This document shows positions 20,180-50,172 of a DNA stretch of 64,000 nucleotides, piece by piece. The notes beneath the pieces are model-generated. The model saw only the letters and a list, made by a program, of their open reading frames with translations. It was not told the origin of the DNA and searched no databases. The DNA is taken from positions 1-64,000 of IMG/VR virus record IMGVR_UViG_3300022226_000003; one strand, given 5' to 3'. This DNA is from a virus. The stretch's first letter is position 1, and each line of letters starts with the position of its first letter. A program made the position numbers and the translations under genes.

Positions 20180-21471
20180 TGGCTAGAGCGTCCAGAATAT
20201 TTGTAGGTAAAGTTCCTGCGGTAACAGTACAAGAAATACTGACACCCGTAAGTGCTACTTTAGGACAAGCGGTAGAAACTGATACTGCATTTGAGTTAGC
20301 TCCTATAAGTGATATCATAGGTACCTTAGGACAAGCGGTAGAAACTGACACTTCTAATCAGTTGTATAGTCCTGAAACTATAGGGCAGGCAGTAGAAACT
20401 GATACCGCATTCGAATTGGCCCCTATAAGTGATGTAATAGGAACTTTGGGGCAAGCCATTGAAACAGATACTTCTTTTGATTTCACCCCGGTTACCAATG
20501 TTACAGGTACTCTAGGACAGGCTGTAGAAACTGATACTGCGCAAGAAGTATCAGGTATTACGAACGTCACAGGATTGCTCTCACAGGCTCAAGAGGTGGG
20601 CACTGCGGGAGAACTTTACGTTCCTAATACCATCATAAGGGCCACGGAAACGGATCAGGCTGGCGTACTCTCGGGCACTCTGGACGTCACTGGGATGCTG
20701 AATCAGGCCGTCGAAACCGATACCGCTAATGAATTATACAGTCCTGAAACAATAGCGCAAGCGATAGAAGCCGATACTGCTAACACTATTACTCCTATAA
20801 CAAACGTTACAGGAACATTAGGACAGGCCGCCGAGACCGATACTGCACAGGCATTTACAGGATTAGTTGTTGTAGCTGGTTTATTAGGACAGGCTACTGA
20901 AACTGATACCGCGCAGACTATTACAGCTATTACGCCTGTAGTAGGTACATTATCCCAAGTTATTGAAGTTGATACTGCAGGTAATATAACACCTAGGACA
21001 GCTACAACAATTGTTCTTGGGCAGGCTGTTGAAACTGATACTGCACAGGTATTAAGTGGTATAATAGCAGTCTCAGGTGTACTTATTCAAGCTACTGAGA
21101 CCAATACTGCTAACAATATAATACCTATAAATGCCACAGTAGGTACATTAGGGCAAGCTACTGAGACTGATACTGCTCAAATATTTACTCCTGCAACATT
21201 AACAAGTAATGCTACTGTTGATATTATAGGTGGTGAAAACTTATCTAATTTGACATATATTGTATTTGACTCTTATGATCTTTCAACTGCAAATGTTATA
21301 AAACAAGGTGTTGGAGAAAGCACTGATGTAAATGGTAACTTAGTTGTGGATTTGGGTGGCACAGGAGTGGCTAATAATGATCCTATAACGATAGTAGTAA
21401 CTAATTATACAACTACACCTACTGTAAATAGCAGAGCGGCTGTTTGTTATACTAATGCTGTGGTAGCCTAA
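20179..21471 (+). CDS. ETDTA-repeat virion protein
   Basis: 430 residues. About residues 20-340 consist of 15 tandem units of roughly 18-24 residues around LGQAVETDTA, many separated by a short P(I/V)(S/T)(D/N)V(I/T)G-type linker. A non-repetitive C-terminal domain of about 90 residues follows (from VDIIGGENLSNLTYIVFDSYD). The same unit appears three times in the protein at 3836. Tandem beta-type repeats of this sort suggest an elongated fibre or a decoration protein. Start overlaps the previous stop. Confidence 0.6.
   Translation: MARASRIFVGKVPAVTVQEILTPVSATLGQAVETDTAFELAPISDIIGTLGQAVETDTSNQLYSPETIGQAVETDTAFELAPISDVIGTLGQAIETDTSFDFTPVTNVTGTLGQAVETDTAQEVSGITNVTGLLSQAQEVGTAGELYVPNTIIRATETDQAGVLSGTLDVTGMLNQAVETDTANELYSPETIAQAIEADTANTITPITNVTGTLGQAAETDTAQAFTGLVVVAGLLGQATETDTAQTITAITPVVGTLSQVIEVDTAGNITPRTATTIVLGQAVETDTAQVLSGIIAVSGVLIQATETNTANNIIPINATVGTLGQATETDTAQIFTPATLTSNATVDIIGGENLSNLTYIVFDSYDLSTANVIKQGVGESTDVNGNLVVDLGGTGVANNDPITIVVTNYTTTPTVNSRAAVCYTNAVVA
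20245..21200 (+). repeat. Tandem coding repeats (LGQAVETDTA units)
   Basis: About 15 imperfect coding repeats of 54-72 bp, each centred on a ggacaagcggtagaaactga-like core. Codon choice varies between units (for instance gaaactgat, gaaaccgat, gagaccgat), so the protein repeat is better kept than the DNA repeat, which argues for selection on the protein. Confidence 0.75.
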
Positions 21472-22100: not shown

Positions 22101-23669
22101 ATGGCTGTTGCGAACGCTGCTGATAGTACAAAGAAAGTTGGCGATCCTAATGCAGAATATGAATCCATGCGGGATATTTGGCAAAAATGCAGAGCTATTT
22201 GTAGCGGCGAAAGATTCGCAAAAGCCTTGGATACATATTTAGATATACATGGATACAGTAATCTTTTAATCCCATTTTCACCCTCAATGACTGATGCACA
22301 ATACAAATTCTATAAAGCAGAAGCAGAACTACCCGGTATTACTGCACAGTTTGCGAGGATGTTAGTGGGAGGTCTTCTCAGAAAAGAGCCCATGTTGGAA
22401 CTCCCGGATGGTATGAATGAAGATATTCAAAATTGGATGATGAATAATTTCACTCAAGATAATTCTACGATAACTTCATTCTTAGACGATATTCTTTGGG
22501 AAGAGATACAAACAGGCAGAGCGTGGATTTATGTGGATTATCCAGTAATACCTGATGTAGAAAATGCTACCCAGGAAGAAATCTTCGATTTAGCGCCATT
22601 TCCTGTTATGTGGAAAGCTGAAAATATTATAAATTGGCGGGTTAGTCCTGACGAGGTAGGGAATGCCATTTTAAGACAGGTTATCATAAAGGGTTCTGTC
22701 GCTAGGTATACTGATAATGAATTTCATCCTGAATTTATTGAAACTGTGTATGTGCATGAGTTAGATGATACGGGACATTACCAGATAAGAGTTTTTGAAA
22801 AGCAATCCATCGAGGCGAAAGTACCTGTTGTGGCCGGACAAAAATTTGTGGATAATCGAAAAACCACAGATAATTTTGTTTTGGTGAAGACAATTCAAGA
22901 TATTAAAGCTGCTGGTGAAAGATTGAAATTGATTCCCGCTTGGCCTTTAAATGGAACTATCTCAGTCTCTGAACCAATATTGTCGCCAATTGTAGATAAA
23001 GAAGTTAGCCTATATAATAAGGTTAGCCGCAGGAACCATCTGTTATATGGTGCCTCTACATATACACCTATTATCAAATCAGATATGTTAGATGAAGATT
23101 TTGACAAGATAGTGGATAGTGGATTAGGCACATGGATAAAACTTGGAAGAGATGATGATGCTTCTGTTTTAGAAACACCCACAGCTGCATTAAAAGATAT
23201 GGACAGGGCCATCGCTGCCGCAATTGAGGAAATGGCCAAATTAGGTATCAGAATGTTGTCTCCTGAAACAGCACAATCTGGTGTTGCTTTGGAACTGAGA
23301 AATGCCGCGCAGAATGCTCAATTAGGTTCTTTAAATAATAAAGTTAGTGTGACTATCTCGAAAGTCATAGCTTTTATGATTTTTTGGAAGACAGGCGATG
23401 AAATTAAAGATTCTGATATTGGTTTTCAACTATCTGCGGATTTCAACCCAATACCTCTTGGTGCGGATTGGTTAAGACTCGCGACAGAATGGTATGAAAA
23501 TGGCTTAATACCGCGAAGCATTTGGTTACAAATACTTAAACAGAATGATATAATGCCTCCGGATTATGATGATGACGACGGTTTGAAAGAAATAAATAAT
23601 GATGAAATATTATTAAAGAAAGAGAAACAAAATGAAGAGTTCTTTGATGATGTGAATACCGAGGCTTAA
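22101..23669 (+). CDS. Portal protein (DUF4055 family)
   Basis: 522 residues with the DUF4055 portal pattern: YESMRDIWQKCRAICSGE, LIPFSPSMTDAQYKFYKAEAELPG, an arginine-rich turn (LVGGLLRKEP), and a helical C-terminal part with EMAKLGIRMLSPETAQSGVALELRNAAQNAQL. The portal forms the dodecameric ring at one capsid vertex through which DNA passes. The gene lies just before the MuF head protein, the usual order. Its length is near the family's usual size. Confidence 0.85.
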   Translation: MAVANAADSTKKVGDPNAEYESMRDIWQKCRAICSGERFAKALDTYLDIHGYSNLLIPFSPSMTDAQYKFYKAEAELPGITAQFARMLVGGLLRKEPMLELPDGMNEDIQNWMMNNFTQDNSTITSFLDDILWEEIQTGRAWIYVDYPVIPDVENATQEEIFDLAPFPVMWKAENIINWRVSPDEVGNAILRQVIIKGSVARYTDNEFHPEFIETVYVHELDDTGHYQIRVFEKQSIEAKVPVVAGQKFVDNRKTTDNFVLVKTIQDIKAAGERLKLIPAWPLNGTISVSEPILSPIVDKEVSLYNKVSRRNHLLYGASTYTPIIKSDMLDEDFDKIVDSGLGTWIKLGRDDDASVLETPTAALKDMDRAIAAAIEEMAKLGIRMLSPETAQSGVALELRNAAQNAQLGSLNNKVSVTISKVIAFMIFWKTGDEIKDSDIGFQLSADFNPIPLGADWLRLATEWYENGLIPRSIWLQILKQNDIMPPDYDDDDGLKEINNDEILLKKEKQNEEFFDDVNTEA

Positions 23670-23677
23670 GTAAAATA

Positions 23678-26600
23678 ATGGTAGACAATGTAAATACACA
23701 AATATATGACGGTCGTCTTAATAGGGCCGCATTATTGAGATTGTATGAAAATAATACCATCAGTAAAGTAGATATTGTGATGGATGGACATGTATTCAGA
23801 CTTGATAAGCTGATTAAGAATTCAAAGATGACTTCGACTAGCTTCAAGAGTTTTGAAATAAATTTGAATAGGGAACTGAAACGAACTTATAGAGAAGTTT
23901 TCTCGGTTTCTAAAAGATCACTTTTGGACTTAGCTAGCGACCAAGTCTCTTATACGTATCAGAATTTAGAAGCAGGTGTTAGTAAAGTTTGGCGCACAAA
24001 AAGACCTCAAAGAAGAATTGCTGAGGAAATTGTCTTGAAACAACCCTTGCATTCCAATAAGACTCTGGAACAGGGCTGGGTAGGTATAAGCGCGGGTGAG
24101 AGAAAACGATTATCGTCAGTTATTCGTAAAGGAATTGCTGAAGGAGATACTCCGGAAGTTATTGCCAGGAATGTACGTAAAGGTAACATTCATAAGATAA
24201 CCAGGAACCAATCTAGAGCTCTTGTAACTACTTCCATAACAAGTGTTGCAGCACAAGCTGATCATGAAGTCTATGCTGCAAACGGAGACGCCCTGAAAGG
24301 TTGGCAGTATGTGGCCGTCTTGGACTCCAGGACCACGCCTGTGTGCTCGCATCGTGATGGCCATATTTACCCCATAGGGGACACGAAGCATCTGCCTCCG
24401 GCCCACTACCGCTGCAGGTCGACAACGACACCTGTAGTAAAAAGTTGGGATGATTTAAGTAAATTAGAAGGTGTAAATCAAGTAAGAAAAAGAAATCTTA
24501 AAAAATTGAACCCTGCGCAAGTGGCATTTTACGATGGATTGACACCTTTAAAAGAATCATATAATTCATGGTTATTAAGACAGCCCACAAATATCCAAGT
24601 GAAACATCTAGGTAGTTACCAGAAAGTAGATCTATTCAATAACGGTAAGTTATCTGTAGATAAATTCACCGCACCTTCGGGTGCTGAATTGGGAATACGG
24701 CAATTGAGACAATTAACTGATTCCGAATATACAGCTCCCAGTGACACTAAAAGATTTGCACTTGCTAAAGAAAGATTAGATGCAATGCACTTGGGCGCAA
24801 GTCGCCCTGAAGATTTTATTGATGATATCAAATTGACCAATACCCTGAGGGATTATTATGTCTTACAATCTGCTGAATTAGACGGGACATTATCTTTAAC
24901 AAATTATAGAGGTAATTTAATAGGTACTAAGAGACGAACTAAAAATTTGGTCTTAAACAAATTACCACGAGAAGATCAGCTATTGTTCAATCCTATAACT
25001 GGTAGATACGAAGATTCTAGATTATTCCAACCTGCCCCGGCTGTCTTGGAAAATAATTTAAAACTTGTTAATGAAAGTCTTGTATTGAAACAGGCTGATA
25101 AGGATTATATCATTAAATTTATAGCCAGTCTAGAAAGCCGAATGAGTGTTAATGAGAGAGCTGTTGTAGCAGATAACTTAAGAATACTATTTACAAGATA
25201 CCGCAAAAACCCTGAAGTATGGACTAACTTTAAAGCAGTTTCTCAAGCTCAAATCAAATTTGATGTAATGAATGTTTCAGACTCTATCGAAACACAATTG
25301 AGAAAAGACGCCAATTTGCTTAAGAAATTGAAACAAGACAATTACATAGACCCTGTATTAGGTGCTGTGCAATTAGATGATTTATCGAATAATTTTATAA
25401 ATAATATTTCTAAAAGAAATCGATGGGAAGATAAAGTAGCACCTAAGTTAGCTAGACAACTAAGAGATATCTTTGACAGAAATATCCCAATAAGATTGCA
25501 GAGAAGAATTCCCGATGATAAATTACAACAATTTTATTTAAGATTTGCACATAGACTTAGCTTAGCAGATAGTCCTGATGTTGATAATTTAGCTGTCTCT
25601 TTAGGGCGCGATCTATATAATATGGCTGAACTCAATGGTACTAAGCAACAATGGCATACTCTGGGTAAAAAGATAATTGAATCTAACAATAAGTTTTTTA
25701 AATTAGAAACATTCGGTGTCCAAAAACGCAGGATGAAAAGTAGATTAAGTGGTCAATATTTTGGACCTTACTATGATACTTTTTCGTATAATATAAGAAT
25801 CACTGATCCCAGGATTCAGGAGTACTCAAGACTTAATAGAAGTATTGATGTAGGTCTCCGTATAGGTGTCACTGATCCAAAGAATAGATTACTTTTTAGA
25901 GAAGGCTATAAAACTTATTTTTATAAAGATAAATTAGGTGGCTATGTAGATACCCGAATTCCAATCACTTCTTCATCTGCATTCAGAGATTTTCCTGAAG
26001 AATTTATTGATAAAGATATGGTGAGTGCTTTAAATTGGGCCGCTAAGTCTGAATTTAAGGTTGATGAAGATTACTATGATTTTGTAAATAAATTATTAAA
26101 TTTTGCTGATGACCGTGGTCGTGCTCAATACTTCGATGACTTGAATCAGTATCGACGTTACATAATTTCTCGTGGAGATTCCTATGAAAGATTCAAATCC
26201 ATGCAATGGTTTAGGGATCGTAATATTGCTTTCTCTAATCACCCTTTCATTGATTCTAGAGCACGGATCTATGATCGTGGATTTATTAGCCCTCAGTCTG
26301 GAGAAACTTTTAGGCCTTTCCTCAATACTTCGTATGAGAGAGCTTTAGGCGAAATTGGTTTTAAAAATTTTAATGACCAAATAGGGTCTTTCTTAGGAGG
26401 ATTGGATGACTTCTTTGAGGGTCGTTTCAACTCGCTAAGTATCACAGGTAGGCAAAAGATTGCAAATAAGTGGCGTCCAGAGTTAGTTAAAATTGGCAAT
26501 CACATGATTCGTGGAAAGCCTAATGATATTAGAGCAATATTGCAATCAGATATTGTGGCTAAGATTGAAGGTGAAGAACTAGGGAAGTTTCTAAGATTTG

Positions 26601-28297
26601 CAATAGAGACGGCTAAGATTGATAACTTTATGAAAGGTGATTATAAAAATCTTTCTAAACTTAATAGTTATAAAACAGCATTAGCGCTAGAGCAAGATGC
26701 CTCTTCATCAGGTGCGCAAATAATTGCTTTAACAACTAGAAACAAACAATTAGCTGAATTGAGCAATGTTATTCCAACTAACCAGAAGAAAAGATTATAC
26801 GATGAGATAGCAGCAGCTACCTTCAATGATTCTAGATTTAGACAGTTAAATTTAAGGTTGGGAATAAATGAGAAAGATTTACGAAAAGCTGCAAAAGCAC
26901 AAAATATGGTTACATTCTATGGTGCTGGCGATCGCACAGGTATTCTGAATGTTGAACGAAAACTGGCTTCAGCTTTGGAAAGACAGCCTGGAACATTGGT
27001 GGTCAAGGCTTCCCAGAGAGATGAAATCTTGGGTGAAATTTCCGCCAGAATAGCTAGGTTTGAAAAGTTCGATCCAGAAACTGCAGCTGAGCTTGCAGTA
27101 TTAAGGACAAATGTTAGAGATATCTTTAATAAGGGTCTAAATCCTGGCCAAGATATCATGGATGATCTATATTTCTTGTCACCACAAACTAAAGATTTCT
27201 TAGAAAAGATGTCTTTGAGTTATGATAAAGTTATCACACCGAACGATTTTAAAGAAATTGCTTCAATTATGAGTGAATACCTAGCAGAACAGACTCCTGT
27301 ACTTAAAACATTCACGAAGTTTTTAGGTCGTCTTGCGGAAGATTTCCTTGAAAACGCCAGACCATCTAAGAGTGATTTTGATTGGAAAAGTATTTTTAAA
27401 GTAAAGCTATTAGGTACACGTAAGGATGGATATAAATTACCTGACAGAATAGGTGAAATATTGGGAGTAAATACTTCAAAATCTGTGAGTGAATCTTTTC
27501 TAAGTAAATTTGGTTTCTGGAAGCCCAATGGGTTTCTTGATGAATTAATATACGGCACCAGAGATCCTTTAAATAGACGGATCGGTGCCAAGTACTTTAA
27601 AATTGATATTGCAAAAATTAAGAAAATTTATGAATTAGAAATTTTCAGAGCAAATAAATTACCCAAACGTTGGACAAATGTACCTTGGGTTAATTTTGAT
27701 AAAAAGACACTAGAACAAAACTTTACATCAACAATAGAAACACGGTTATTTTACAGAGATAAAGATGGAAATCCTATTACAAATATTATTCAAATAGATA
27801 ATAAGAGTGAAGCTACATGGTGGGAACAATTCATAAATAATTCTGGCAATATAAATGACATTGCAGATACAGCTAAGGCTAGAACAGCTTATGCTGTAAA
27901 TGGAACTCATTCTAATGACGCAGTACTCGTCAAGAGATTTCATATCTGGGGTAGAGAAAATAATGTAAATACAGCGACTGTTCATGATGCTTTCTTCACT
28001 AATATTGGTGAGATGTTGGAAGCTAAACAAGCATTACGGAATATCTACGCTAAGGCAGCCGAATCGAATGTAATCAAACAAACATTAGATGAAATGCGCG
28101 CTAGGGGTTTTCCGAAGGAATTATATGATAAGTATTTAAATGAAGCAATTGAGATAGGGCTGATACCGATACCCGGTAAATCTAGGATTGGTGGAAGGCT
28201 TCTAACTGATACGGATATATTAACACGCGAGGATATTTTAAGAGATATAGATGAGGTTTTTGAAGACGACCTTAGCTGGTATGGTGTTGGCGGGTAG
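23678..28297 (+). CDS. MuF head protein fused to a single-subunit RNA polymerase (putative virion RNA polymerase)
   Basis: 1539 residues. About residues 85-260 form a MuF/SPP1 gp7-type head-morphogenesis domain: LDSRTTPVCSHRDG (D216, C223) and LPPAHYRCRS (H243, C246). A long helical middle follows. From about residue 600 the protein reads as a single-subunit RNA polymerase: IDSRARIYD (D859-R863, the D/TxxGR motif with Gly to Ala), motif A EQDASSSGAQ (D1007), motif B KAQNMVTFYG (K1073 and Y1081, exactly eight apart as in T7 K631/Y639), and motif C TVHDAFF (H1436-D1437). MuF proteins sit in the capsid at the portal and can be ejected. I infer a packaged polymerase that transcribes early DNA, as the N4 virion enzyme does. 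The A-C distance (430 residues) exceeds T7's (275) and is closer to N4's. The core of the MuF domain is abnormally GC-rich. Confidence 0.85.
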   Translation: MVDNVNTQIYDGRLNRAALLRLYENNTISKVDIVMDGHVFRLDKLIKNSKMTSTSFKSFEINLNRELKRTYREVFSVSKRSLLDLASDQVSYTYQNLEAGVSKVWRTKRPQRRIAEEIVLKQPLHSNKTLEQGWVGISAGERKRLSSVIRKGIAEGDTPEVIARNVRKGNIHKITRNQSRALVTTSITSVAAQADHEVYAANGDALKGWQYVAVLDSRTTPVCSHRDGHIYPIGDTKHLPPAHYRCRSTTTPVVKSWDDLSKLEGVNQVRKRNLKKLNPAQVAFYDGLTPLKESYNSWLLRQPTNIQVKHLGSYQKVDLFNNGKLSVDKFTAPSGAELGIRQLRQLTDSEYTAPSDTKRFALAKERLDAMHLGASRPEDFIDDIKLTNTLRDYYVLQSAELDGTLSLTNYRGNLIGTKRRTKNLVLNKLPREDQLLFNPITGRYEDSRLFQPAPAVLENNLKLVNESLVLKQADKDYIIKFIASLESRMSVNERAVVADNLRILFTRYRKNPEVWTNFKAVSQAQIKFDVMNVSDSIETQLRKDANLLKKLKQDNYIDPVLGAVQLDDLSNNFINNISKRNRWEDKVAPKLARQLRDIFDRNIPIRLQRRIPDDKLQQFYLRFAHRLSLADSPDVDNLAVSLGRDLYNMAELNGTKQQWHTLGKKIIESNNKFFKLETFGVQKRRMKSRLSGQYFGPYYDTFSYNIRITDPRIQEYSRLNRSIDVGLRIGVTDPKNRLLFREGYKTYFYKDKLGGYVDTRIPITSSSAFRDFPEEFIDKDMVSALNWAAKSEFKVDEDYYDFVNKLLNFADDRGRAQYFDDLNQYRRYIISRGDSYERFKSMQWFRDRNIAFSNHPFIDSRARIYDRGFISPQSGETFRPFLNTSYERALGEIGFKNFNDQIGSFLGGLDDFFEGRFNSLSITGRQKIANKWRPELVKIGNHMIRGKPNDIRAILQSDIVAKIEGEELGKFLRFAIETAKIDNFMKGDYKNLSKLNSYKTALALEQDASSSGAQIIALTTRNKQLAELSNVIPTNQKKRLYDEIAAATFNDSRFRQLNLRLGINEKDLRKAAKAQNMVTFYGAGDRTGILNVERKLASALERQPGTLVVKASQRDEILGEISARIARFEKFDPETAAELAVLRTNVRDIFNKGLNPGQDIMDDLYFLSPQTKDFLEKMSLSYDKVITPNDFKEIASIMSEYLAEQTPVLKTFTKFLGRLAEDFLENARPSKSDFDWKSIFKVKLLGTRKDGYKLPDRIGEILGVNTSKSVSESFLSKFGFWKPNGFLDELIYGTRDPLNRRIGAKYFKIDIAKIKKIYELEIFRANKLPKRWTNVPWVNFDKKTLEQNFTSTIETRLFYRDKDGNPITNIIQIDNKSEATWWEQFINNSGNINDIADTAKARTAYAVNGTHSNDAVLVKRFHIWGRENNVNTATVHDAFFTNIGEMLEAKQALRNIYAKAAESNVIKQTLDEMRARGFPKELYDKYLNEAIEIGLIPIPGKSRIGGRLLTDTDILTREDILRDIDEVFEDDLSWYGVGG

Positions 28298-28299
28298 AT

Positions 28300-28318
28300 A
28301 CCCCGTTAAATTAACCCA
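28300..28318 (+). repeat. Control element copy 2 (accccgttaWattaaccc)
   Basis: A 19-bp exact match to the copy at 329-347, starting three bases after the stop of the MuF-polymerase gene. The core GTTA-AAT-TAAC can form a 4-bp stem with a 3-base loop. It precedes the scaffold and capsid genes. Confidence 0.6.
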
Positions 28319-28353: not shown

Positions 28354-28372
28354 CATAATACTGTGTATTATG
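28354..28372 (+). promoter_or_regulatory. Perfect 8-bp hairpin with 3-base loop, N4-type promoter candidate
   Basis: CATAATAC-TGT-GTATTATG (28354-28372). The N4 virion RNA polymerase recognises hairpins with a short stem, a three-base loop and a central purine; this hairpin has loop TGT with central G. It sits 29 bases before the scaffold ATG. The link to the MuF-polymerase is inference. Confidence 0.4.
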
Positions 28373-28400
28373 TCTTAAGTTGTACTTGAGGAATAAATTT

Positions 28401-29117
28401 ATGCCCGGCACTGATGAAACAAACACTGGCGATAGCACTGATGGTAATGGTAGCACCGAAAATGCTGCATCCACCATTACAGTTAAACCTAGTGAATCCA
28501 AATCTCCTAATGCGTCTGAAACTTCTGGTGATAGTGAGTTATCTATCCAAGAACAGATTCAAAAAGGGATTGATGAAGCTTTAAAACCGCTAAAAGAGAA
28601 AGTTGATAAAGCCTATTCTGAAAGGGATGAGGCTCTGGTTAAAATTAAGGAACATGAAGAAAGGTTAAGAAAAGAAGAGTTAGAAAGACTTGAAGCGGAA
28701 GGAAAGCATAAAGAAGCCTATGAAGCTAGACTCAGAGATGAGGAAGCTAAAAGACAAGCTCTTGAAAAACAAAATATTGAACTCACGAGAGATATTGAAG
28801 TTAAGAATGAGCTTTCTAAATATGAATTCAGGAATCAAAATGCCCGAAATATGGCGTTTCGAGATATCTCTGGAGATCTAGTTAGAAATGATAAAGGCGT
28901 TTGGGTTCACAAAGATGGTGACAGTGTAGAAAATATAGTTAAAGCTTACGTGGAAAGTGCAGAAAATTCTTTCTTACTTAAGCCGAAGGTTTCATCAGGT
29001 TCAGGCACCGAGATTATCGAAACTAATAACTCCTCAGGTGGCAACAAATCACTTTTCGACTTACCGCAATCTGAGGTACTTAACATGGCTGCGAAGGGAA
29101 ATCTTCGCAAAAGATAG
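28401..29117 (+). CDS. Capsid scaffolding protein
   Basis: About 238 residues from an ATG nine bases after a gagga site (an in-frame start at 28380 is less likely). It has a low-complexity Ser/Thr/Asp N-terminus, a long charged coiled coil over residues about 50-150 (KIKEHEERLRKEELERLEAEGKHKEAYEARL) and a C-terminal part with DLPQSEVLNMAAKGN. This composition and the position directly before the major capsid gene are typical of scaffolds that shape the prohead and are then removed. No protease motif is evident. Confidence 0.8.
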   Translation: MPGTDETNTGDSTDGNGSTENAASTITVKPSESKSPNASETSGDSELSIQEQIQKGIDEALKPLKEKVDKAYSERDEALVKIKEHEERLRKEELERLEAEGKHKEAYEARLRDEEAKRQALEKQNIELTRDIEVKNELSKYEFRNQNARNMAFRDISGDLVRNDKGVWVHKDGDSVENIVKAYVESAENSFLLKPKVSSGSGTEIIETNNSSGGNKSLFDLPQSEVLNMAAKGNLRKR

Positions 29118-29129
29118 AGGAAATATTAA

Positions 29130-30332
29130 ATGCCATTACGTATTAATGTTGCAGGTGCTACTGAATTTGCGCTACAAGAAGCAATTGGTGCTTATTCAGA
29201 TGAAGCCTACACCAATGCCAAAAAACTTTCAAGTACAGGTATTGTAGGCGGAAACCCACAAATCGATACCAGCTCAGAGACCTATATTGGTCAAATGCGT
29301 TGGTTTAAACCCTTAAACCCTACTATCAATACAGCTTCTCTGACAGTAGCTACTGATGGTGCTTTCACCACTTACGGTTCGGAATACCTGAACTACGTCA
29401 AAACTGCTCGTACCCACGGTGCGCAGAAAGTTAACCTGCAAACCCTGGTCACTCAGCAAGATGGTCTTGCTAAGATCAGCCGTGATTTCGGTGAAACCAA
29501 GGCTCAAGATGAGCACAATGCTATCCTTGCTGTTCTGAAAGGTGTTGCTATTGCTGAACTTCTGCATGGTACCGGTGATGCCGGTGGTGGTGCTGGTCTT
29601 GGTGGACAAGGCTGGGATAATGACCCTACTGATCCGCTGTATGGCTTCTACGTGGATCTTGGCGCAAATCCGATTGTCACAGCCCCGGCTGCTGCTAATA
29701 TTGGCGCTCAACGTGCTGCAGGCTTCCTTGATGCTATCGGTATGGCTTACAAAGATTACGAGCCGGAATTCTTCTACCTGATTACTAGCCCTGAAGTTAT
29801 GGCTTCTCTGCGTTCTGCTAATCTTGTAGATGAAACCAAAGTTGTTGACGGTAATATTGTTTTTGACACTATTTTCCAAGGTAAATTCCGTTTAATTCAA
29901 ACTCGTGCAACTCAAAGTTTGACTGCTGCAGAAATTGACAAATTTGATGCCACGAACGTATCTAATCTGGGTGTTGATTTAGTTGGTCAGAAGACCACTT
30001 ATCTTGTACAACCCGGTGCATTGGCGATGGAAGCTCTGCAGATTGCAGAAGATGTTGAATTTGATCGTGATGCTTCTGCTTATGCTGGTGGCGGTACCAC
30101 TGAAATTTGGTATCGTTGGGGCTACGTCGTTCATCCGGGCGGTTACAACTGGACTGGTTCGCAAGATGCTTTCCCGAGTGATGCTCAGTATAAAGAAGTC
30201 ACGAATGATGGCGGTGCGACTACCGCAACTGTTGTGGCAATGCCCGCAGCAACTACGGGTTACACTGGTGTTTGGACAAGGAAGGCTAATTCTGTACTCT
30301 CACTAGGAATTTTACCTGTATTCCACGCTTAA
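29130..30332 (+). CDS. Major capsid protein
   Basis: 400 residues directly downstream of the scaffold. The N-terminus (MPLRINVAGATEFALQEAIGAYSDEAY) and the long helix with EYLNYVKTARTHGAQKVNLQTLVTQQDGLAKISRDFGETKAQDEHNA sub-segments fit a phage capsid protein. Codons are noticeably more C/G-ended (for example cgt, ctg, ggt, acc) than in neighbouring genes, as expected for a very highly expressed gene. The fold (HK97-like) is assumed from family knowledge. An aggaaa site lies ahead of the ATG. Confidence 0.82.
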   Translation: MPLRINVAGATEFALQEAIGAYSDEAYTNAKKLSSTGIVGGNPQIDTSSETYIGQMRWFKPLNPTINTASLTVATDGAFTTYGSEYLNYVKTARTHGAQKVNLQTLVTQQDGLAKISRDFGETKAQDEHNAILAVLKGVAIAELLHGTGDAGGGAGLGGQGWDNDPTDPLYGFYVDLGANPIVTAPAAANIGAQRAAGFLDAIGMAYKDYEPEFFYLITSPEVMASLRSANLVDETKVVDGNIVFDTIFQGKFRLIQTRATQSLTAAEIDKFDATNVSNLGVDLVGQKTTYLVQPGALAMEALQIAEDVEFDRDASAYAGGGTTEIWYRWGYVVHPGGYNWTGSQDAFPSDAQYKEVTNDGGATTATVVAMPAATTGYTGVWTRKANSVLSLGILPVFHA

Positions 30333-33457: not shown

Positions 33458-36400
33458 ATGACGGTAAGAATACCTGTTGAAGCCGAAACCCGAAGAGCTG
33501 AACAAAATTTAGCTAAAGTCACAAACTCTGTGAAGAGTTTAGAAACTACAGCTAACAATACTGCAAGAAATATACGAAGAGCTTTTATCGGTATTGGTGC
33601 TGTAATAACTGCAAATTTCTCAATTAGTTCTATTGGTAGGATTTCTACCGAATTTACTAATTTACAAAATAGGATTGCAATAGTTACAGGTAGGACAAAA
33701 GAGCTAGGTAAAGCGCAAAGAGAGCTACTTCGTATATCTGAAAGAACACGTTTAAATCTTAATAGTACCACTGAAACTTTCGGAATACTAGGTAGATCAG
33801 GTAGACAGTTTGGTGCTCAAACTAAAGATGTTCTTACTGTAACTGAAAATATAGCGAAAGCTATTGCTGTCTCTGGGCAATCTGCTGAGTCTGCACGTTC
33901 AGCTATTATCCAATTAGGCCAGGGCTTAGGTGCTGGGACATTAAGGGGCCAAGAGCTTCTGGCTGTTCTGGAACAAGCAACACCTGTCGCTGAAGCTATT
34001 GCACGTGGGCTTGATGTTCCACTTGGTAAATTAAAAGAGCTTGGTGAACAGGGTCAGCTGACTTCTGAGCAAGTATTTGAAGCATTGCTTAGCCAAACCA
34101 AACAAATTGATAGAGAATTCCAGAACGTAAACCCCACAATTGAACAGTCTAAAAACCTGTTGATTGATGGGGTTAAAATTTACGTAGACCAGCTAGACAA
34201 AGGGTTGGGATTATCTGCTAGAGTGGGCCAAAATCTATTAGAATGGTCTAAATCTGTACGTGCTGCTTCTGAAAATGCATTCGAATTAGGCACAAGAATT
34301 GCATTCTCTTTTAATATAATCAAGCGTGATGTAAAGAATGTAATAAGTCCTTTTGTAAGAATAATAAAAGATTTAGGGATCCAATTCTTAAATATTATAC
34401 CTAAAGGCTTTTTAACAATTACTTTAGAAGGTCAAATAAATGAGTCTATACGAGCATTCGATAGATTATTAGGTGGCCCGATTGCTGCATTTAAACGATT
34501 TAAATTTATAGATGTTATTCGCATTGAAAGTGATGTTGAACTTGCCATACGTAATTTAAGAAGATTAAGTCCAAAGTATTGGGCAGCTGCGGGCTTTGAT
34601 GTTCCGACAATTAGGCAGCTATTTAGTAGGGATAACTTTGAACTATATATTAATGGTTTTAGAAGATTAGCTGATGCTGTTGAGAGCAATACTAAATCCA
34701 TTGCAAGCACAATTCGTCAATTCGTTATTGATGTAAGATTTGGTACACTTGCTGCATTGAGATTTTTAGGCTTACTGCCTGATACTCTGCTAGTATTTAA
34801 AGTAGGAAATTTAAAGAGTTTTTCTAAAACAATTATTGAAATTCTAAGAGGAGTTAGTAATACCTCGTTAGAATTTTTCAGAATTGGGCGGATCATCGAT
34901 GAGGTATTGTTTCCTAATCTATTAGATGTATTTGATGTCCTCGCTGATATAATTCGTAAATTTTATAACTCTTTGAATGAATCCTCAATTCTGAGTTCAG
35001 TCAAAGGGCTTTTTGCTAGTTTCGGTCAATTTATTATAAATATATTTAAAAATATTTATGATAAAATTATTGGAAATTCATATTGGACAGATACGGTAGA
35101 AGGATTACCTAAATTAGCTAAAGAAAATATAGATAAAGCTCTTAAGGCATTCAATAATTTTGGCAAGCGGCTCACAGCACTTTTCAAAAATATTGCAAGA
35201 GCAGTCTCCGAGAATTGGAAAAATGTTGTTGTTTTATTCTTAGTAAGTGCTGTTGCTATAGGGCCGTTAATATTAGATGCTATTGGCTATTGGGTAAATT
35301 TTGTAAGTAGGGCTGTTGCCTTGGGCCTTGAATCACTAGCTGTGGTAATCCTTTCAGGATTGATTAAACTGCCTGATGATTTGCCAGATGTTGTAACTAA
35401 TGTAATAGAGAAATTAGGCGGGAGTATTGCAACAGCCTTAATAGTTACAGCTCAAGGTTTTAGGGCATATGGTTTTATTATAAAGAAAGTATTCAATATA
35501 CTGTCTAATATTTTGTTATTTATAGAAATTCGTATAATTCTTGTCCTTAATAAAATAGCGAAGAAGATAGCTTCTTTTATAAAGAGTATCTCATTAGATG
35601 ATATTAAGGATCTTTTCAAAGAATTACCTGAATTGGTATCAAATGGTTTATCTAAAGCTACTGATAGTATCAAAAGTTTTGGATTGAAAACAATAGATGT
35701 TTTTAGAAATATTTACGACAAAGTTATTGGTAACTCATATTGGACAGATACAATAGAGAGTATTGTGAATTCTTCCAATACATTGTGGAATAGAGTTAGT
35801 AAGGGCTTACTCATATTTAAAGAAAATGTAACAAATATTTTTAGAGATATCTTTAATACCCGCAAAGAAGATCGCCTTAGTAAGATTCTAGATACTGGTC
35901 GTGATCTTATTCCAGGGCTTCAGCCGAAAGGTTTTGCTTCAGGTTTTATTGAAGAAATACAAGAAGTTTTTGCTTATATACAAGAGAAATTTCCTTTTGT
36001 TGTTACTGGTGCTTTCATCGGTATAGGTGGGCTTATCGCATCTCTGTTATTCCCTGCAGGCAGCATAAAAACAGCAATACTTACAGGTGTAACACTTTCT
36101 TTAATAAAAGTTGGAACTATACTAACTGAAAAATTGTCAAATAGTGTCTTAGATGCGAGTATTGTCAATCAATTGGCATTAAATGCTGGTGAGGCTGTCG
36201 GTGTCTTCTTCGCTTCCATCATAAGAGATTTGCCTAGCACATTGAGTATAGTATTTGGTGCAATTTCGAATTTCTTTAGAGGTGTCATTGAACAAATACC
36301 CTTGCTGGGAACTGCATTAAAAGGCGTATTTAATATTGCAGATGTTGCAGGCCTTGCCGGAGCTTTAGGTTTATTTGGAGTATTCTTATTTGGGAAATAC

Positions 36401-39400
36401 ACGATAGGTACAATCAGCAAAATAGCCAAGGCTCCTCTAGCCACAATTACCCGTCTATTTGTTGCTTCAAAAGCTGCCATCCTGGGGCAAAGCAGCGGTA
36501 TCCTTTCTCAGTATGTATTTGGACCGCTAGGCCCCACACGCTCATTGGCATTAATAGGAATTGCTTTAGATCAATTAGGATTGTTTGAATCACTCTTCAG
36601 AGACTCAGCGCTAACTCAGACTGTTATTGAGGGAGGTCTGCTGTATTTACTGGTCACTGGCGGTAAGGGTGTTTCCACAATCGCAGATTTCATTGGCAAG
36701 AAAGTAATATTTCCATTAGGCAGTAAGCTAGCAATTCTAGCTGCTAAAACAAAGGTAGGTACAACGCTGTTTGATATCTTCTTTGGTGTCACCGGTAATT
36801 TTGGAGATAGAGCAGTTTCTGCAGTCAGGAAAGTTATTGGTAGCGTAAGCGACAAGATCACCACACTGGGTGCTAAAGGTGTTCAATTTGCCGTGCCTTT
36901 CATAAGTAGATTTTTATTTGGCAGAGAACCCGGAGCTACGAAAGACCGTGCAAAGAATGAGTTAGGATTAGTATTTGATGTAATTAGAGATAGCCTTGCA
37001 GGTTTCATTAGACGAGTTCGCCAAACGAATATTGCAGAGGCGATTTTTAGTTTTGGAAATCCTGCACAAATCTTTGACCCGATTAAAAGAGGTTTAATAA
37101 GTTTCTCTACTTTCTTTACAAATACGCTAGGTAAAATGCGTAAGGCCTCGTTACTTTTTGCAGGTCCTGATGGTATTGTAGGTAAGGCCATCTTCGGCAA
37201 AGCCGGTAAAGCTGCGTTAATTACTGGCATCATAGCTACTCTTGCAATATTCAGTTCGAGTGTAAAAGCTGCAAGTGATGAAGTTCCTTCGGATGGAGAG
37301 AAAGGAGGTTTCTTTTCTGGAATCTTTGACAGTCTCGCAAAGTTGGCAAATGAGAACCCTCTGACAGCAACACTCATACCTGCAACAATTATTGCATTAA
37401 TTGCTTTTAGACGACAAGTTTTGAGACTTATACTGAGCGCATTCCCCTCTAATGCATTAAAAGGTTTTGAAACATCTTCTTTGAAAAGTATTAAGAATGT
37501 TGGTAAAATCTTTAGGAGTGTTATTGGTGGATTAGTTGGCACATTCGTCGGTGCTGAGTTAGGTAGAAGAATTGGACCTGAGTTTGAAATTATTGGCGCA
37601 ATTGCTGGAGCTGCTCTCGGTGAAGGTATCTTTAGAGGCTTAGGGAGAGCACTGGCCAGCAGTTTTGTTGTCAGAATCGGTGGCGCAATTTTAGCGGCAA
37701 TTCTGTCAGTAAAAGCTGCAATAGTAGCTGCAATAGCCTCGCTTGTTGCTGTCACTGGAGGACTTTTATATGTATTGTTCTTTGGGGAGACTGGTAATTT
37801 TTCCAAAGACTTAGATTCAGCAATAAATAAAATCAAGAACTTCTTTGGTTTCGGCAAAGATGCTTCCAAGGAAATTTCAACAGGAATCTCAGAAGCTGCT
37901 GAAGCTTTTGCAAATTTTGAAAGAATACGATTTAATTTTTCATTGGAAGGTATTGATCCCGAGCAAATAAGTGAAAGAGAGCAAGGTAAGCTAGATTCCC
38001 GAATTGCTGAATTAAACGAAACTATCTTACGAGCAAGGGATGAGCAAGAAGAGACCGGTAAAATATCAACTGAGACATTAAATGCAATTAATGCTCTAGA
38101 TAGAGGCTTGACAAGATTTACAGACAAACTTAAAGAACGTAGTGAAATTGATTTTGAAGGTACTACCAATCTCTTTAAAAAGTTCGAAGAATTCGAGCCA
38201 GTAAAATTTGGTGAGAAAATTGTAGTTGGTCTGAGGCAAAGTTTCCTAGATTTCTCTTTCTTCTTGAAAGAGATTTCTTTAAAGATAAAAGGATTCTTTG
38301 GCTCTGAAACTGCTGACAGTGAGTTAGAAGATCTAACCAAATTAAAGGATACACTTTTCAGTGCTACATTTAGAAATATCAGTCCCGGTGTTAAAGAAAT
38401 AATAAAATTGCGAGAAGACCTGAACAACACGAAAGGTCTAGACGCAGATATTGTAGAAAGAATAAATAACGGTACAAAAGACTTATTAAATGTTCTTGAG
38501 ATAATTCAAAGAGAGTCTAATTTTCTAGGATTTGAAACACCATTAGAAGAAGATAATAAGTTTCTGGTATTAAGAGAGGTTCTTGTAAAGAGACTCAAAA
38601 AGACTTTAGAGGAAGCTCTTGTTGCTCAACAAAGATTAGTTGATGTTAAAGAGTTTAGAAACACTCTAACGCAAATCTCTCGTGGATTAAACGAAGTAGG
38701 TGTCAGTTTTGATGCGTCAAAATTATTCTTAGATGAAACTGATTTTAATACACTCATAGATTTAGCTGGCAATGCAGCGACAATTGCTGCAGAGAGACTC
38801 AAAGGTGTTGCAAACACTGACGAATTAACACAGTTAAATTTAAGATCATTAGATATTCAAAGAGAAGCTGAGAAACTTATACAAAGAGGTGAAACAGCAA
38901 GTTTAAAGGTTCAAGCCGCAGCTGCAGTGCTTCTATCAAAAATAGGTGAAGATACTTTCTCAGAAAATACAATTGAAAAATTAAGCAAAGACACCGCGAA
39001 TAAAATAGTTGATTTAGTAGAAAAGATTCAAGGTAAAGAGCAGCAAATTAAACTAGAGGTAGAATTAGATACTGATCTTGCTAAATTCCAGATACGAAGA
39101 TTAACCAATGAGGTTGCAAATCTTAGAACCCAGATCAGTAACATTGTCTTAGAAGAAGGCGGATTTGATGCTCTAAATGAATTTGCTGATAAATTCGGTA
39201 TAGATTTTAATAATGCACTAAGGCAATTTGACTTAAGTTTCATATTATCTGAATTTGATAGATTGCAAAATATTCTGAAAAGAATTAGAGTTGTAAAAGA
39301 TAAAGATCCTAAGCAGGCAGCTTTACTTAGGAAAGAATTTGATCTTCTTGTTGCTAATCTAAATATAGCCGATAAAACAATTAATGAAATTCTCTCAGAT

Positions 39401-41083
39401 GTTTCTTCGTTAGGTGTATCTTTTAATTTAGATGATTTCGCAAACATCGATTCAAATACTTTAAATAAATTGAAAGAAGTGTCTGATGAACTTCGCGAAA
39501 TAAATTTAATACTCTCTCGTCAGGGTAAAGATATTAGCGATGATGAAGTCAGAGCAGCGGTTCAGCGTCGTGCCAAGCTGATTGGTACTGTAAATAAGAT
39601 TGAAATTGACCAGTTATTTAATACTGCAGATAAAGCTATTAAGAGTTTAGGCGCGGCCGGTGCAACTGTAGATATCATTCCATTCATCAACGATGCAGCT
39701 TTAGAAAGATTGTTGGAGAGTGAAAGAACAATTGCAAGAATAAATCAAAAATTAAAATCTACTGAAAATGCTTCAGTCTACAAACAACTTGCAGAAGACT
39801 TGAGTAAGGCCAAGAAAGAGGCAGATAGTCTTTCCCGAAAGCAGCTGTTTTCAGAGTCATTTGAAAGATTCCAATTAAGTGATTTAGAAAATTTCAGCAA
39901 GACAGAGACTGTCGATATAGTACTTAAAGCTTTCCCCTTATTGCAAGACTTCAAGAGTCTTATTGAAGAGCTACCTTTCCAAGATCTCAGAGCTTTGCTA
40001 GCAGATGCTATCAAATTTAATGCTAGGGTGGATCGAGCAGATCTTGGAGTTGAGACTTTTACTTTAGCTGACAGGACATCTTTCCAAAGAAGAGGTGGAG
40101 GTGCGGTTACAGAGCAATTATCCGAAGATATATTTGGAATTGATACAAGAGGTCTTGCAAATATAGCCCAGCGTAAGATAAAACAAGAAACAATTAATTT
40201 AGTATCTAGTGTAAATAAAGTATATATTGATTCTTTGCTGAGAGATATAATTGCTGAGCAGGATAGATTACGTATCCCCGGTTTGTCAGAAGAATCCAGG
40301 ATTGCTGCTCAAAACTTAATAAATCAAAAGTCCAGAGAATTAGATTTAGCAATACAACGAGCCTCACTTGATGTAGGAGAACTGGCATTTGAGGCAGGGC
40401 AATCTCTTGTAGATGCATTAGTTAACGGGCTTAATGGTGCCTTATACAGAGGCGTCATAGGTATAAAAGAAGAAGGCAAATCTACTTGGACAACTTTCAG
40501 AGATGTAATTGTGAACACATTCACTGAAGAATTAATTCGTCCTGTTGTAGATGGTATAACAGAAGCTATTAGGAATAGTGGTGCGCTAGATGCACTAGCT
40601 GATATTGGTTCTGAACTCTTCAGTACTTTCTTTGCTGCAATAGCAAGTGCTTTTTCTAAACAAGACAGCTTAGGCGGGACTGCTGGATTAGGTTCTCTGG
40701 TAGGATTTTTCTCCGCCGCCGATGGTGGCCCTGTAGTTGGCCCTGGAACAGGCACTTCTGATAGCATCCCCTCAATGCTATCCAATGGTGAATTTGTGAT
40801 AAATGCATCAGCTACGAAACGAAATAGAGCACTTTTAGAAGCGATTAACAATAATAGATTACCAAAATATGCCTCGGGAGGTATTGTTGGAATACCCTCT
40901 ACTTCTAGTATAAATCCCGCTAAATCTAATTCGCTAGTCTCTGATAATTCTAAATCGCAGCAGATTTTCAATATCAATGTGACCGGCGATATTAGTCGGC
41001 AAACTAAGTCAGAAATATTTAGAATGCTTCCTGAGATATCTAAAGGAGTTAATTCTTACAACTATGAAAAGAGGTTGGCGTAA
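33458..41083 (+). CDS. Tape measure protein
   Basis: 2541 residues, setting tail length. The N-terminal 200 residues are the tape-measure N-terminal domain (NTARNIRRAFIGIGAV, QLGQGLGAGTLRGQELLAVLEQ, LTSEQVFEALL). The motif YDK(I/V)IGNSYWTDT appears twice, from residues about 532 and 751, in a duplicated segment. Several hydrophobic stretches in the centre look like membrane spans used during ejection. The rest is helical. By the usual relation of about 1.5 angstrom per residue the tail would be very long; that is an estimate from family knowledge. Confidence 0.9.
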   Translation: MTVRIPVEAETRRAEQNLAKVTNSVKSLETTANNTARNIRRAFIGIGAVITANFSISSIGRISTEFTNLQNRIAIVTGRTKELGKAQRELLRISERTRLNLNSTTETFGILGRSGRQFGAQTKDVLTVTENIAKAIAVSGQSAESARSAIIQLGQGLGAGTLRGQELLAVLEQATPVAEAIARGLDVPLGKLKELGEQGQLTSEQVFEALLSQTKQIDREFQNVNPTIEQSKNLLIDGVKIYVDQLDKGLGLSARVGQNLLEWSKSVRAASENAFELGTRIAFSFNIIKRDVKNVISPFVRIIKDLGIQFLNIIPKGFLTITLEGQINESIRAFDRLLGGPIAAFKRFKFIDVIRIESDVELAIRNLRRLSPKYWAAAGFDVPTIRQLFSRDNFELYINGFRRLADAVESNTKSIASTIRQFVIDVRFGTLAALRFLGLLPDTLLVFKVGNLKSFSKTIIEILRGVSNTSLEFFRIGRIIDEVLFPNLLDVFDVLADIIRKFYNSLNESSILSSVKGLFASFGQFIINIFKNIYDKIIGNSYWTDTVEGLPKLAKENIDKALKAFNNFGKRLTALFKNIARAVSENWKNVVVLFLVSAVAIGPLILDAIGYWVNFVSRAVALGLESLAVVILSGLIKLPDDLPDVVTNVIEKLGGSIATALIVTAQGFRAYGFIIKKVFNILSNILLFIEIRIILVLNKIAKKIASFIKSISLDDIKDLFKELPELVSNGLSKATDSIKSFGLKTIDVFRNIYDKVIGNSYWTDTIESIVNSSNTLWNRVSKGLLIFKENVTNIFRDIFNTRKEDRLSKILDTGRDLIPGLQPKGFASGFIEEIQEVFAYIQEKFPFVVTGAFIGIGGLIASLLFPAGSIKTAILTGVTLSLIKVGTILTEKLSNSVLDASIVNQLALNAGEAVGVFFASIIRDLPSTLSIVFGAISNFFRGVIEQIPLLGTALKGVFNIADVAGLAGALGLFGVFLFGKYTIGTISKIAKAPLATITRLFVASKAAILGQSSGILSQYVFGPLGPTRSLALIGIALDQLGLFESLFRDSALTQTVIEGGLLYLLVTGGKGVSTIADFIGKKVIFPLGSKLAILAAKTKVGTTLFDIFFGVTGNFGDRAVSAVRKVIGSVSDKITTLGAKGVQFAVPFISRFLFGREPGATKDRAKNELGLVFDVIRDSLAGFIRRVRQTNIAEAIFSFGNPAQIFDPIKRGLISFSTFFTNTLGKMRKASLLFAGPDGIVGKAIFGKAGKAALITGIIATLAIFSSSVKAASDEVPSDGEKGGFFSGIFDSLAKLANENPLTATLIPATIIALIAFRRQVLRLILSAFPSNALKGFETSSLKSIKNVGKIFRSVIGGLVGTFVGAELGRRIGPEFEIIGAIAGAALGEGIFRGLGRALASSFVVRIGGAILAAILSVKAAIVAAIASLVAVTGGLLYVLFFGETGNFSKDLDSAINKIKNFFGFGKDASKEISTGISEAAEAFANFERIRFNFSLEGIDPEQISEREQGKLDSRIAELNETILRARDEQEETGKISTETLNAINALDRGLTRFTDKLKERSEIDFEGTTNLFKKFEEFEPVKFGEKIVVGLRQSFLDFSFFLKEISLKIKGFFGSETADSELEDLTKLKDTLFSATFRNISPGVKEIIKLREDLNNTKGLDADIVERINNGTKDLLNVLEIIQRESNFLGFETPLEEDNKFLVLREVLVKRLKKTLEEALVAQQRLVDVKEFRNTLTQISRGLNEVGVSFDASKLFLDETDFNTLIDLAGNAATIAAERLKGVANTDELTQLNLRSLDIQREAEKLIQRGETASLKVQAAAAVLLSKIGEDTFSENTIEKLSKDTANKIVDLVEKIQGKEQQIKLEVELDTDLAKFQIRRLTNEVANLRTQISNIVLEEGGFDALNEFADKFGIDFNNALRQFDLSFILSEFDRLQNILKRIRVVKDKDPKQAALLRKEFDLLVANLNIADKTINEILSDVSSLGVSFNLDDFANIDSNTLNKLKEVSDELREINLILSRQGKDISDDEVRAAVQRRAKLIGTVNKIEIDQLFNTADKAIKSLGAAGATVDIIPFINDAALERLLESERTIARINQKLKSTENASVYKQLAEDLSKAKKEADSLSRKQLFSESFERFQLSDLENFSKTETVDIVLKAFPLLQDFKSLIEELPFQDLRALLADAIKFNARVDRADLGVETFTLADRTSFQRRGGGAVTEQLSEDIFGIDTRGLANIAQRKIKQETINLVSSVNKVYIDSLLRDIIAEQDRLRIPGLSEESRIAAQNLINQKSRELDLAIQRASLDVGELAFEAGQSLVDALVNGLNGALYRGVIGIKEEGKSTWTTFRDVIVNTFTEELIRPVVDGITEAIRNSGALDALADIGSELFSTFFAAIASAFSKQDSLGGTAGLGSLVGFFSAADGGPVVGPGTGTSDSIPSMLSNGEFVINASATKRNRALLEAINNNRLPKYASGGIVGIPSTSSINPAKSNSLVSDNSKSQQIFNINVTGDISRQTKSEIFRMLPEISKGVNSYNYEKRLA

Positions 41084-48136: not shown

Positions 48137-48154
48137 ACCCCGTTATATTAACCC
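48137..48154 (+). repeat. Control element copy 3 (accccgttatattaaccc)
   Basis: This matches the other two copies except for A to T in the first base of the predicted GTTA-NNT-TAAC loop, so the stem is preserved. The upstream ggcRa is shared with copy 1. It lies immediately before a sigma70-type promoter and the early genes. Confidence 0.6.
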
Positions 48155-50083: not shown

Positions 50084-50172
50084 TCAAACTATTAATAGGA
50101 CTGTATTTGCTTACTCTTATTCCCAAGATTTTTAAGAAATTAGAGAAAATAAATGAAAAGAAAATTAATTGA
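50080..50172 (+). CDS. 30-residue peptide overlapping the RNA polymerase start
   Basis: Starts in an ATGA overlap and encodes a short hydrophobic segment (LLIGLYLLTLIPKIF) with a basic tail. Its last 20 bases overlap the RNA polymerase gene, so its translation may couple to that gene. Short and uncertain. Confidence 0.4.
   Translation: MIKLLIGLYLLTLIPKIFKKLEKINEKKIN

Follow-up and report, generated by a model that had tools for sequence, protein, structure and literature searches.

A MuF head protein fused to a T7-fold RNA polymerase, a candidate virion RNA polymerase of long-tailed phages

The fusion gene and its neighborhood

The window, by which we mean the whole 64-kb stretch of DNA analyzed, belongs to a 77.5-kb metagenomic virus record. 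Positions 23678–28297 on the plus strand form a single stop-free reading frame of 1539 residues, for which full-length homologues exist. Its N-terminal part (residues ~49–351; 23822–24730, plus strand) is a MuF head-morphogenesis domain, matched by Pfam Phage_Mu_F (PF04233) at residues 146–250 (3e-12) and by the PHROG head morphogenesis family (phrog_241) at residues 49–351 (2.5e-66). The catalytic core of a single-subunit RNA polymerase (RNAP) occupies residues ~841–1480 (26198–28117, plus strand). It is recognized by Pfam RNA_pol (PF00940; residues 1379–1476, 7.2e-12), by the PHROG RNA polymerase family (phrog_414; residues 857–1092, 1.6e-19), by structural matches in the PDB, by alignment to T7 RNAP and by residue invariance. 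Both Pfam matches exceed their curated cut-offs. Between the two parts, with approximate boundaries, lie a linker and the N-terminal region of the polymerase (residues ~352–840; 24731–26197, plus strand), which are mostly helical in the AlphaFold model and match no known domain.

A first-pass annotation, made from the sequence, had proposed a MuF head domain and a single-subunit RNAP in one frame, and Pfam and PHROG agree on both domains. The residues D216, C223, H243, and C246 of the MuF part sit where that annotation placed them, and they are invariant in the 103–107 sequences that cover these positions. The model of the MuF half is of moderate confidence (pLDDT 66), so its structural matches, which are head morphogenesis and minor capsid proteins, are taken as supporting evidence only. 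By the features tested, the protein is a member of both the MuF and the single-subunit RNAP families. The agreement of the predicted residue positions, both domain matches, and the T7 alignment places this pattern far beyond chance.

The portal protein gene lies directly upstream of the fusion gene (22101–23669, plus strand; phrog_145, 5.8e-61; 43% to the DSS3_VP1 portal). Downstream, on the same strand, follow a probable scaffold protein (28380–29117; phrog_206, 9e-6; homologue in DSS3_VP1), the major capsid protein (29130–30332; phrog_247, 1.1e-16), an adaptor, a tail tube protein, and a tail tape measure protein of 2541 residues (33458–41083; phrog_3336, 1.3e-60), which marks a long-tailed phage. 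The fusion gene thus adjoins the portal and the scaffold and capsid genes, within the late structural block. A second, free T7-like RNAP of 752 residues (RNAP2) is encoded at 50153–52411 on the plus strand (PF00940, 9.7e-63; 34.5% to the DSS3_VP1 RNA polymerase). A free RNAP is found in 13 of 15 related records, and the fusion RNAP is only distantly related to the free enzyme of the same phage. The record also encodes a family-A DNA polymerase, a primase-helicase, and a B12-type ribonucleotide reductase. A coding region at window positions 20272–21032 contains short direct repeats, for example TAGAAACTGATAC, which are perhaps repeats of a tail or surface protein.

Fold and catalytic residues of the polymerase part

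The AlphaFold model of residues 346–1539, for which an alignment of 49 relatives served as input, has a mean pLDDT of 80.3 and a pTM of 0.76. In the Foldseek comparison, its best 50 PDB matches are exclusively T7 RNAP and the mitochondrial RNAPs of human or yeast (E 8e-19 to 7e-15, probability 1.00). The right-hand polymerase fold, which the first-pass annotation had named beforehand as the point at which its proposal could fail, therefore held in both structure prediction and PDB comparison. The comparison with T7 RNAP that it had called for places T7 among these 50 matches. The target-normalized TM-scores of 0.42–0.54 point to a divergent member of the single-subunit RNAPs with extra parts. 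Read from the predicted secondary-structure string and not from three-dimensional coordinates, D1007 comes after a strand, a single helix holds both K1073 and Y1081, and H1436-D1437 is found between two strands, a predicted arrangement compatible with the canonical palm and O-helix.

In the core, the motifs are DxxxR (859–863), motif A (D1007), motif B (K1073/Y1081), H1411, and motif C (H1436/D1437). In an unsupervised alignment, the T7 residues D421, R425, D537, R627, K631, Y639, G640, H784, H811, and D812 correspond to D859, R863, D1007, R1069, K1073, Y1081, G1082, H1411, H1436, and D1437, with identical residues in 10 of 10 pairs. The positions of D1007, K1073, Y1081, H1436, and D1437 are those given beforehand, and the claim that the T7 catalytic residues are retained, including K631 and Y639, is borne out: K1073 and Y1081 are eight residues apart, and D1007 and D1437 pair with their T7 counterparts.

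Nine of these residues (D859, R863, D1007, K1073, Y1081, G1082, H1411, H1436, and D1437) show no variation in the 151–155 sequences that cover them, at 30–77% identity. The tenth, R1069, is kept within the clade of this record; most members of the roseophage clade have Ala there. From K1073 to D1437 there are 364 residues, compared with 181 in T7, a doubling of the spacing between motifs B and C that is due to an insertion present in this clade. The median distance from Y1081 to D1437 is 356 residues in this clade and shorter, 242, in the roseophage clade. Since the catalytic residues are invariant in 155 sequences, 100 of which are full-length fusions, selection appears to maintain the fusion as well as catalysis.

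In the BFVD database of models, the MuF half has A0A7S6C6Y8 (633 residues) as its second-best structural match, and the RNAP half has A0A7S6C631 (762 residues). The two belong to the same accession series and may come from one phage with unfused MuF and RNAP.

Relatives and distribution

Among ~50,000 phage records, full-length matches are found only in EBPR siphovirus 1 (57%) and in the Naomviridae roseophages DSS3_VP1 and DSS3_PM1 (30%), whose homologues are annotated only as head protein, minor head protein-like or head morphogenesis. These phages share the gene order of this record, and DSS3_VP1, whose host is Ruegeria pomeroyi DSS-3, carries the fusion, 1463 residues long, in a complete genome. 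An exact-pattern scan of IMG/VR built from the single fusion protein gave no matches, and a pattern from its alignment with the roseophage sequence gave hundreds of relatives, at least 546 and at least 556 viral contigs in two scans. The MuF half is in the same frame as the polymerase in 100 of the 155 sequences examined, which form two clades ~32% identical to each other. Among the shorter sequences without the MuF half, only four start away from a contig edge. No separate polymerase ORF replaces the fusion in the relatives, barring cases at contig edges and a few short frames, for which frameshifts may be responsible. The identification of the fusion also sets right how hundreds of viral contigs are annotated.

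Candidate promoters and a hairpin ahead of the scaffold gene

An 18-bp element, ACCCCGTTAAATTAACCC, is located at 28300–28317 (plus strand), ahead of the scaffold and capsid genes. A second copy is found at 329–346 and a third, with one mismatch, at 48137–48154, ~2 kb upstream of the free RNAP gene, both on the plus strand. With a fourth copy at record position 69396, all those in the 77.5-kb record run in gene direction, and 0.02 copies are expected in the 64-kb window. The consensus of 111 non-redundant copies across loci is a sharp element, AMCCCGTTAAATTAACCCW, with flanks that lack strong conservation; only these flanks are informative, since the 16-bp core served as the search pattern. 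The element is mostly intergenic, with 9 of 122 distinct copies within a same-strand ORF of at least 100 residues vs 92% of random positions. In many loci it lies ~10 bp past the stop codon of the MuF-RNAP gene, and in near-complete relatives with both features located it precedes the free RNAP gene by ~2–7 kb.

DSS3_VP1 (NC_055826.1) has a different element, ATAGGKTRCGTTAAAGAGGGGG, with ~15 gene-strand copies from 2242 to 59196 and 1–3 hits in the control. Its copies fall into sub-types by site (GGTTA, GGGTG, and GGTGA). The elements ACCCCGTTAAATTAACCC/AMCCCGTTAAATTAACCCW and ATAGGKTRCGTTAAAGAGGGGG resemble promoters used by a phage single-subunit RNAP, and either of the two enzymes could be the reader. 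In this genome, the copy upstream of RNAP2 is followed by a perfect −10 TATAAT, so the host RNAP might start the RNAP2 operon. At loci L301–L305, where the element precedes the free RNAP, a C-rich run such as CTCCCCC stands a few bases after it.

The sequence CATAATAC-TGT-GTATTATG at window positions 28354–28372 forms a hairpin ahead of the scaffold gene. Most of the relatives checked have a hairpin with a TGT loop and a differing stem at the same pre-scaffold position, and such hairpins are rare in the rest of these genomes. A search for N4-type hairpin promoters gave no genome-wide enrichment of hairpins with 3-nt loops. Given this rarity, we did not adopt the TGT-loop hairpin as the promoter of the fusion RNAP; an operator, a site of RNA processing, and a promoter are all candidate roles.

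Comparison with known systems

The virion RNAP of N4 (vRNAP, Schitoviridae gp50) is likewise a T7-fold single-subunit enzyme inside a larger head protein, in a phage that makes a second RNAP early; the early genes it serves encode that second RNAP (PMC12633501). It differs in its 3,500 residues, its other flanking domains, and its lack of MuF, and N4 is a short-tailed phage. The first-pass annotation had drawn the parallel to N4 and suggested profile searches with the polymerase part. A profile of the fusion family scores 20.5 bits to T7 RNAP and −1.7 bits to the N4 mini-vRNAP, and we rejected kinship with the N4 enzyme. An N4-like PHROG matches the fusion protein at E 0.25 only, and the fold search places free phage RNAPs well ahead of N4-like models. 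The parallel therefore stands for the shared logic, a virion RNAP followed by a second RNAP, and falls for descent, as the polymerase part is not detectably near the N4 vRNAP.

Thermus phage P23-45 is closer in its body plan, being a long-tailed phage with a virion RNAP on a structural protein (gp96), a non-virion RNAP encoded by the early genes, and a two-step early program (PMC10770324). Its virion enzyme is a two-barrel, cellular-type RNAP on the tape measure protein, whereas here a T7-fold RNAP is joined to MuF. The T7 and mitochondrial RNAPs share the fold and catalytic residues of the fusion polymerase; they are free enzymes, and T7 has ~180 fewer residues between motifs B and C.

On the MuF side, SPP1 has the same gene order as this record, with portal, gp7 (MuF), and then scaffold and capsid genes. 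The SPP1 portal draws gp7 into the procapsid, and gp7 raises infectivity and helps to start infection (PMC6316719). As in the MuF polymorphic toxins, MuF lies by the portal and carries a C-terminal extra domain thought to be capsid-borne. The cargo of those proteins is a variable toxin, whereas here it is a complete RNAP that is constant across the family, and we therefore rejected membership in the MuF polymorphic toxins. In the literature found, ejection of MuF proteins themselves is at the stage of a proposal.

DSS3_VP1 has dU-DNA (PMC12697855), and we considered whether such DNA is the reason for owning RNAPs. The DSS3 phages carry dU-DNA genes, whereas a search of this genome record, which may be incomplete, gave no match to a dCMP/dCTP deaminase. 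As the deaminase was found in only one of the relatives searched, this explanation is not general and was rejected.

Proposed function

We consider it likely that the fusion protein is a virion RNAP loaded through MuF and outside the N4 family; its packaging, ejection, and activity we infer. By analogy with SPP1 gp7, the MuF part would bind the portal and bring one or a few copies of the fusion into the procapsid. On infection, the polymerase would leave with the DNA through the tail, refold in the cytoplasm, and, independently of host RNAP, transcribe the earliest phage genes, among them the operon of the free RNAP, which would then take over transcription. Transcription by the ejected polymerase may also help to draw the genome in. 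With somewhat less confidence, we favor the wider picture of an undescribed and widespread group of long-tailed phages in which a MuF-loaded, N4-independent T7-fold RNAP is ejected through the tail and a second RNAP takes over, so that host RNAP is not needed at the start.

Both domains above cut-offs in one frame, together with a fold that matches single-subunit RNAPs alone in the best 50 PDB matches, support the assignment as a virion RNAP. The gene order shared with SPP1 gp7, the conservation of the catalytic residues and of the fusion across both clades, the free RNAP in 13 of 15 related records, and the element ~2–7 kb upstream of its gene also support it. A head-bound RNAP would be redundant beside the free enzyme unless it were the first to act; the free RNAP would be made only after infection, a context that fits the virion-RNAP assignment. 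The logic would equal that of N4 and P23-45. Against it, a polymerase of ~1,200 residues would have to pass a siphovirus tail; yet exit of the vRNAP from the N4 virion is reported, and the P23-45 virion also contains an RNAP. The TATAAT by the RNAP2 element also counts against it, as the host RNAP might start that operon itself.

The main alternative is a polymerase that is made late and acts inside the infected cell, or one that is released from MuF by cleavage. The fusion would then serve only to couple where or when the enzyme is made to capsid assembly, for instance so that DNA at the portal is cleared or transcribed. The position of the gene within the late structural block agrees with this, as does the low number of MuF proteins per virion, one to two copies for SPP1 gp7 (PMC5576092), and ejection itself rests on inference. 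However, a free RNAP is already present for late transcription, no separate polymerase ORF replaces the fusion in the relatives (with the exceptions at contig edges and in short frames given above), and the other packaged RNAPs in the literature, those of N4 and P23-45, are early enzymes. We regard late action as unlikely.

We give much less weight to a catalytically dead polymerase part, or one that is merely a DNA-binding component of the head. The title of a reference in PMC5576092 does call SPP1 gp7 a DNA-binding protein targeted to the procapsid, but the eight catalytic residues (the nine invariant ones above apart from G1082) are retained throughout, which is not expected of a dead domain. 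No more credible is an anti-host effector, in which an injected polymerase-like domain would target host nucleic acids and not phage promoters: MuF proteins of temperate phages do bear C-terminal toxin domains (PMC5576092, PMC3482391), but toxin C-termini vary, whereas here a full polymerase is constant across two clades and hundreds of contigs, and the carrier phages have their own replication genes. Finally, the metagenomic origin of the window could raise the suspicion that assembly or a frame error has joined two adjacent genes, which is refuted by the complete DSS3_VP1 genome and by the 100 sequences that keep the two halves in frame; we assign it almost no probability.

Literature text searches, whose coverage did not extend to the 2021 roseophage paper, gave no description of a MuF-RNAP fusion. 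A 2017 survey whose queries included the N4 vRNAP and MuF found N4-like vRNAPs in N4-like phages only (PMC5512222). If the proposal is true, the fusion would be another, independent way for a virus particle to carry a polymerase. It would bring together two established ideas, the virion RNAP and MuF cargo, that are unconnected in the literature found. It would also offer a natural way to test whether ejection of MuF cargo truly occurs, since a polymerase gives an easy read-out in rifampicin-resistant early RNA. The idea is testable now, as the carrier DSS3_VP1 infects a lab-grown host.

Introns in motif B

In EBPR siphovirus 1 (JF412302), the fusion gene is annotated as three genes, gp47, gp48 (HNH), and gp49. 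A group I intron (RF00028) is detected within it at E 1.6e-8, under the gathering score. The intron begins inside motif B, between KAQNMV and TFYG (23176–24036 of that locus, L002), and gp47 and gp49 are probably joined by splicing into a single protein. The free RNAP gene is split in motif B (KRNxMTxP|YGG) in two relatives, G005 (locus L295, 1742–1938) and G008 (locus L296). A search for a group I intron in the free RNAP gene of G008 gave nothing above threshold, and the interruption in G005 is a group I intron (E 8.8e-15). Introns interrupt this catalytic motif in both phage RNAPs, the fusion and the free enzyme.
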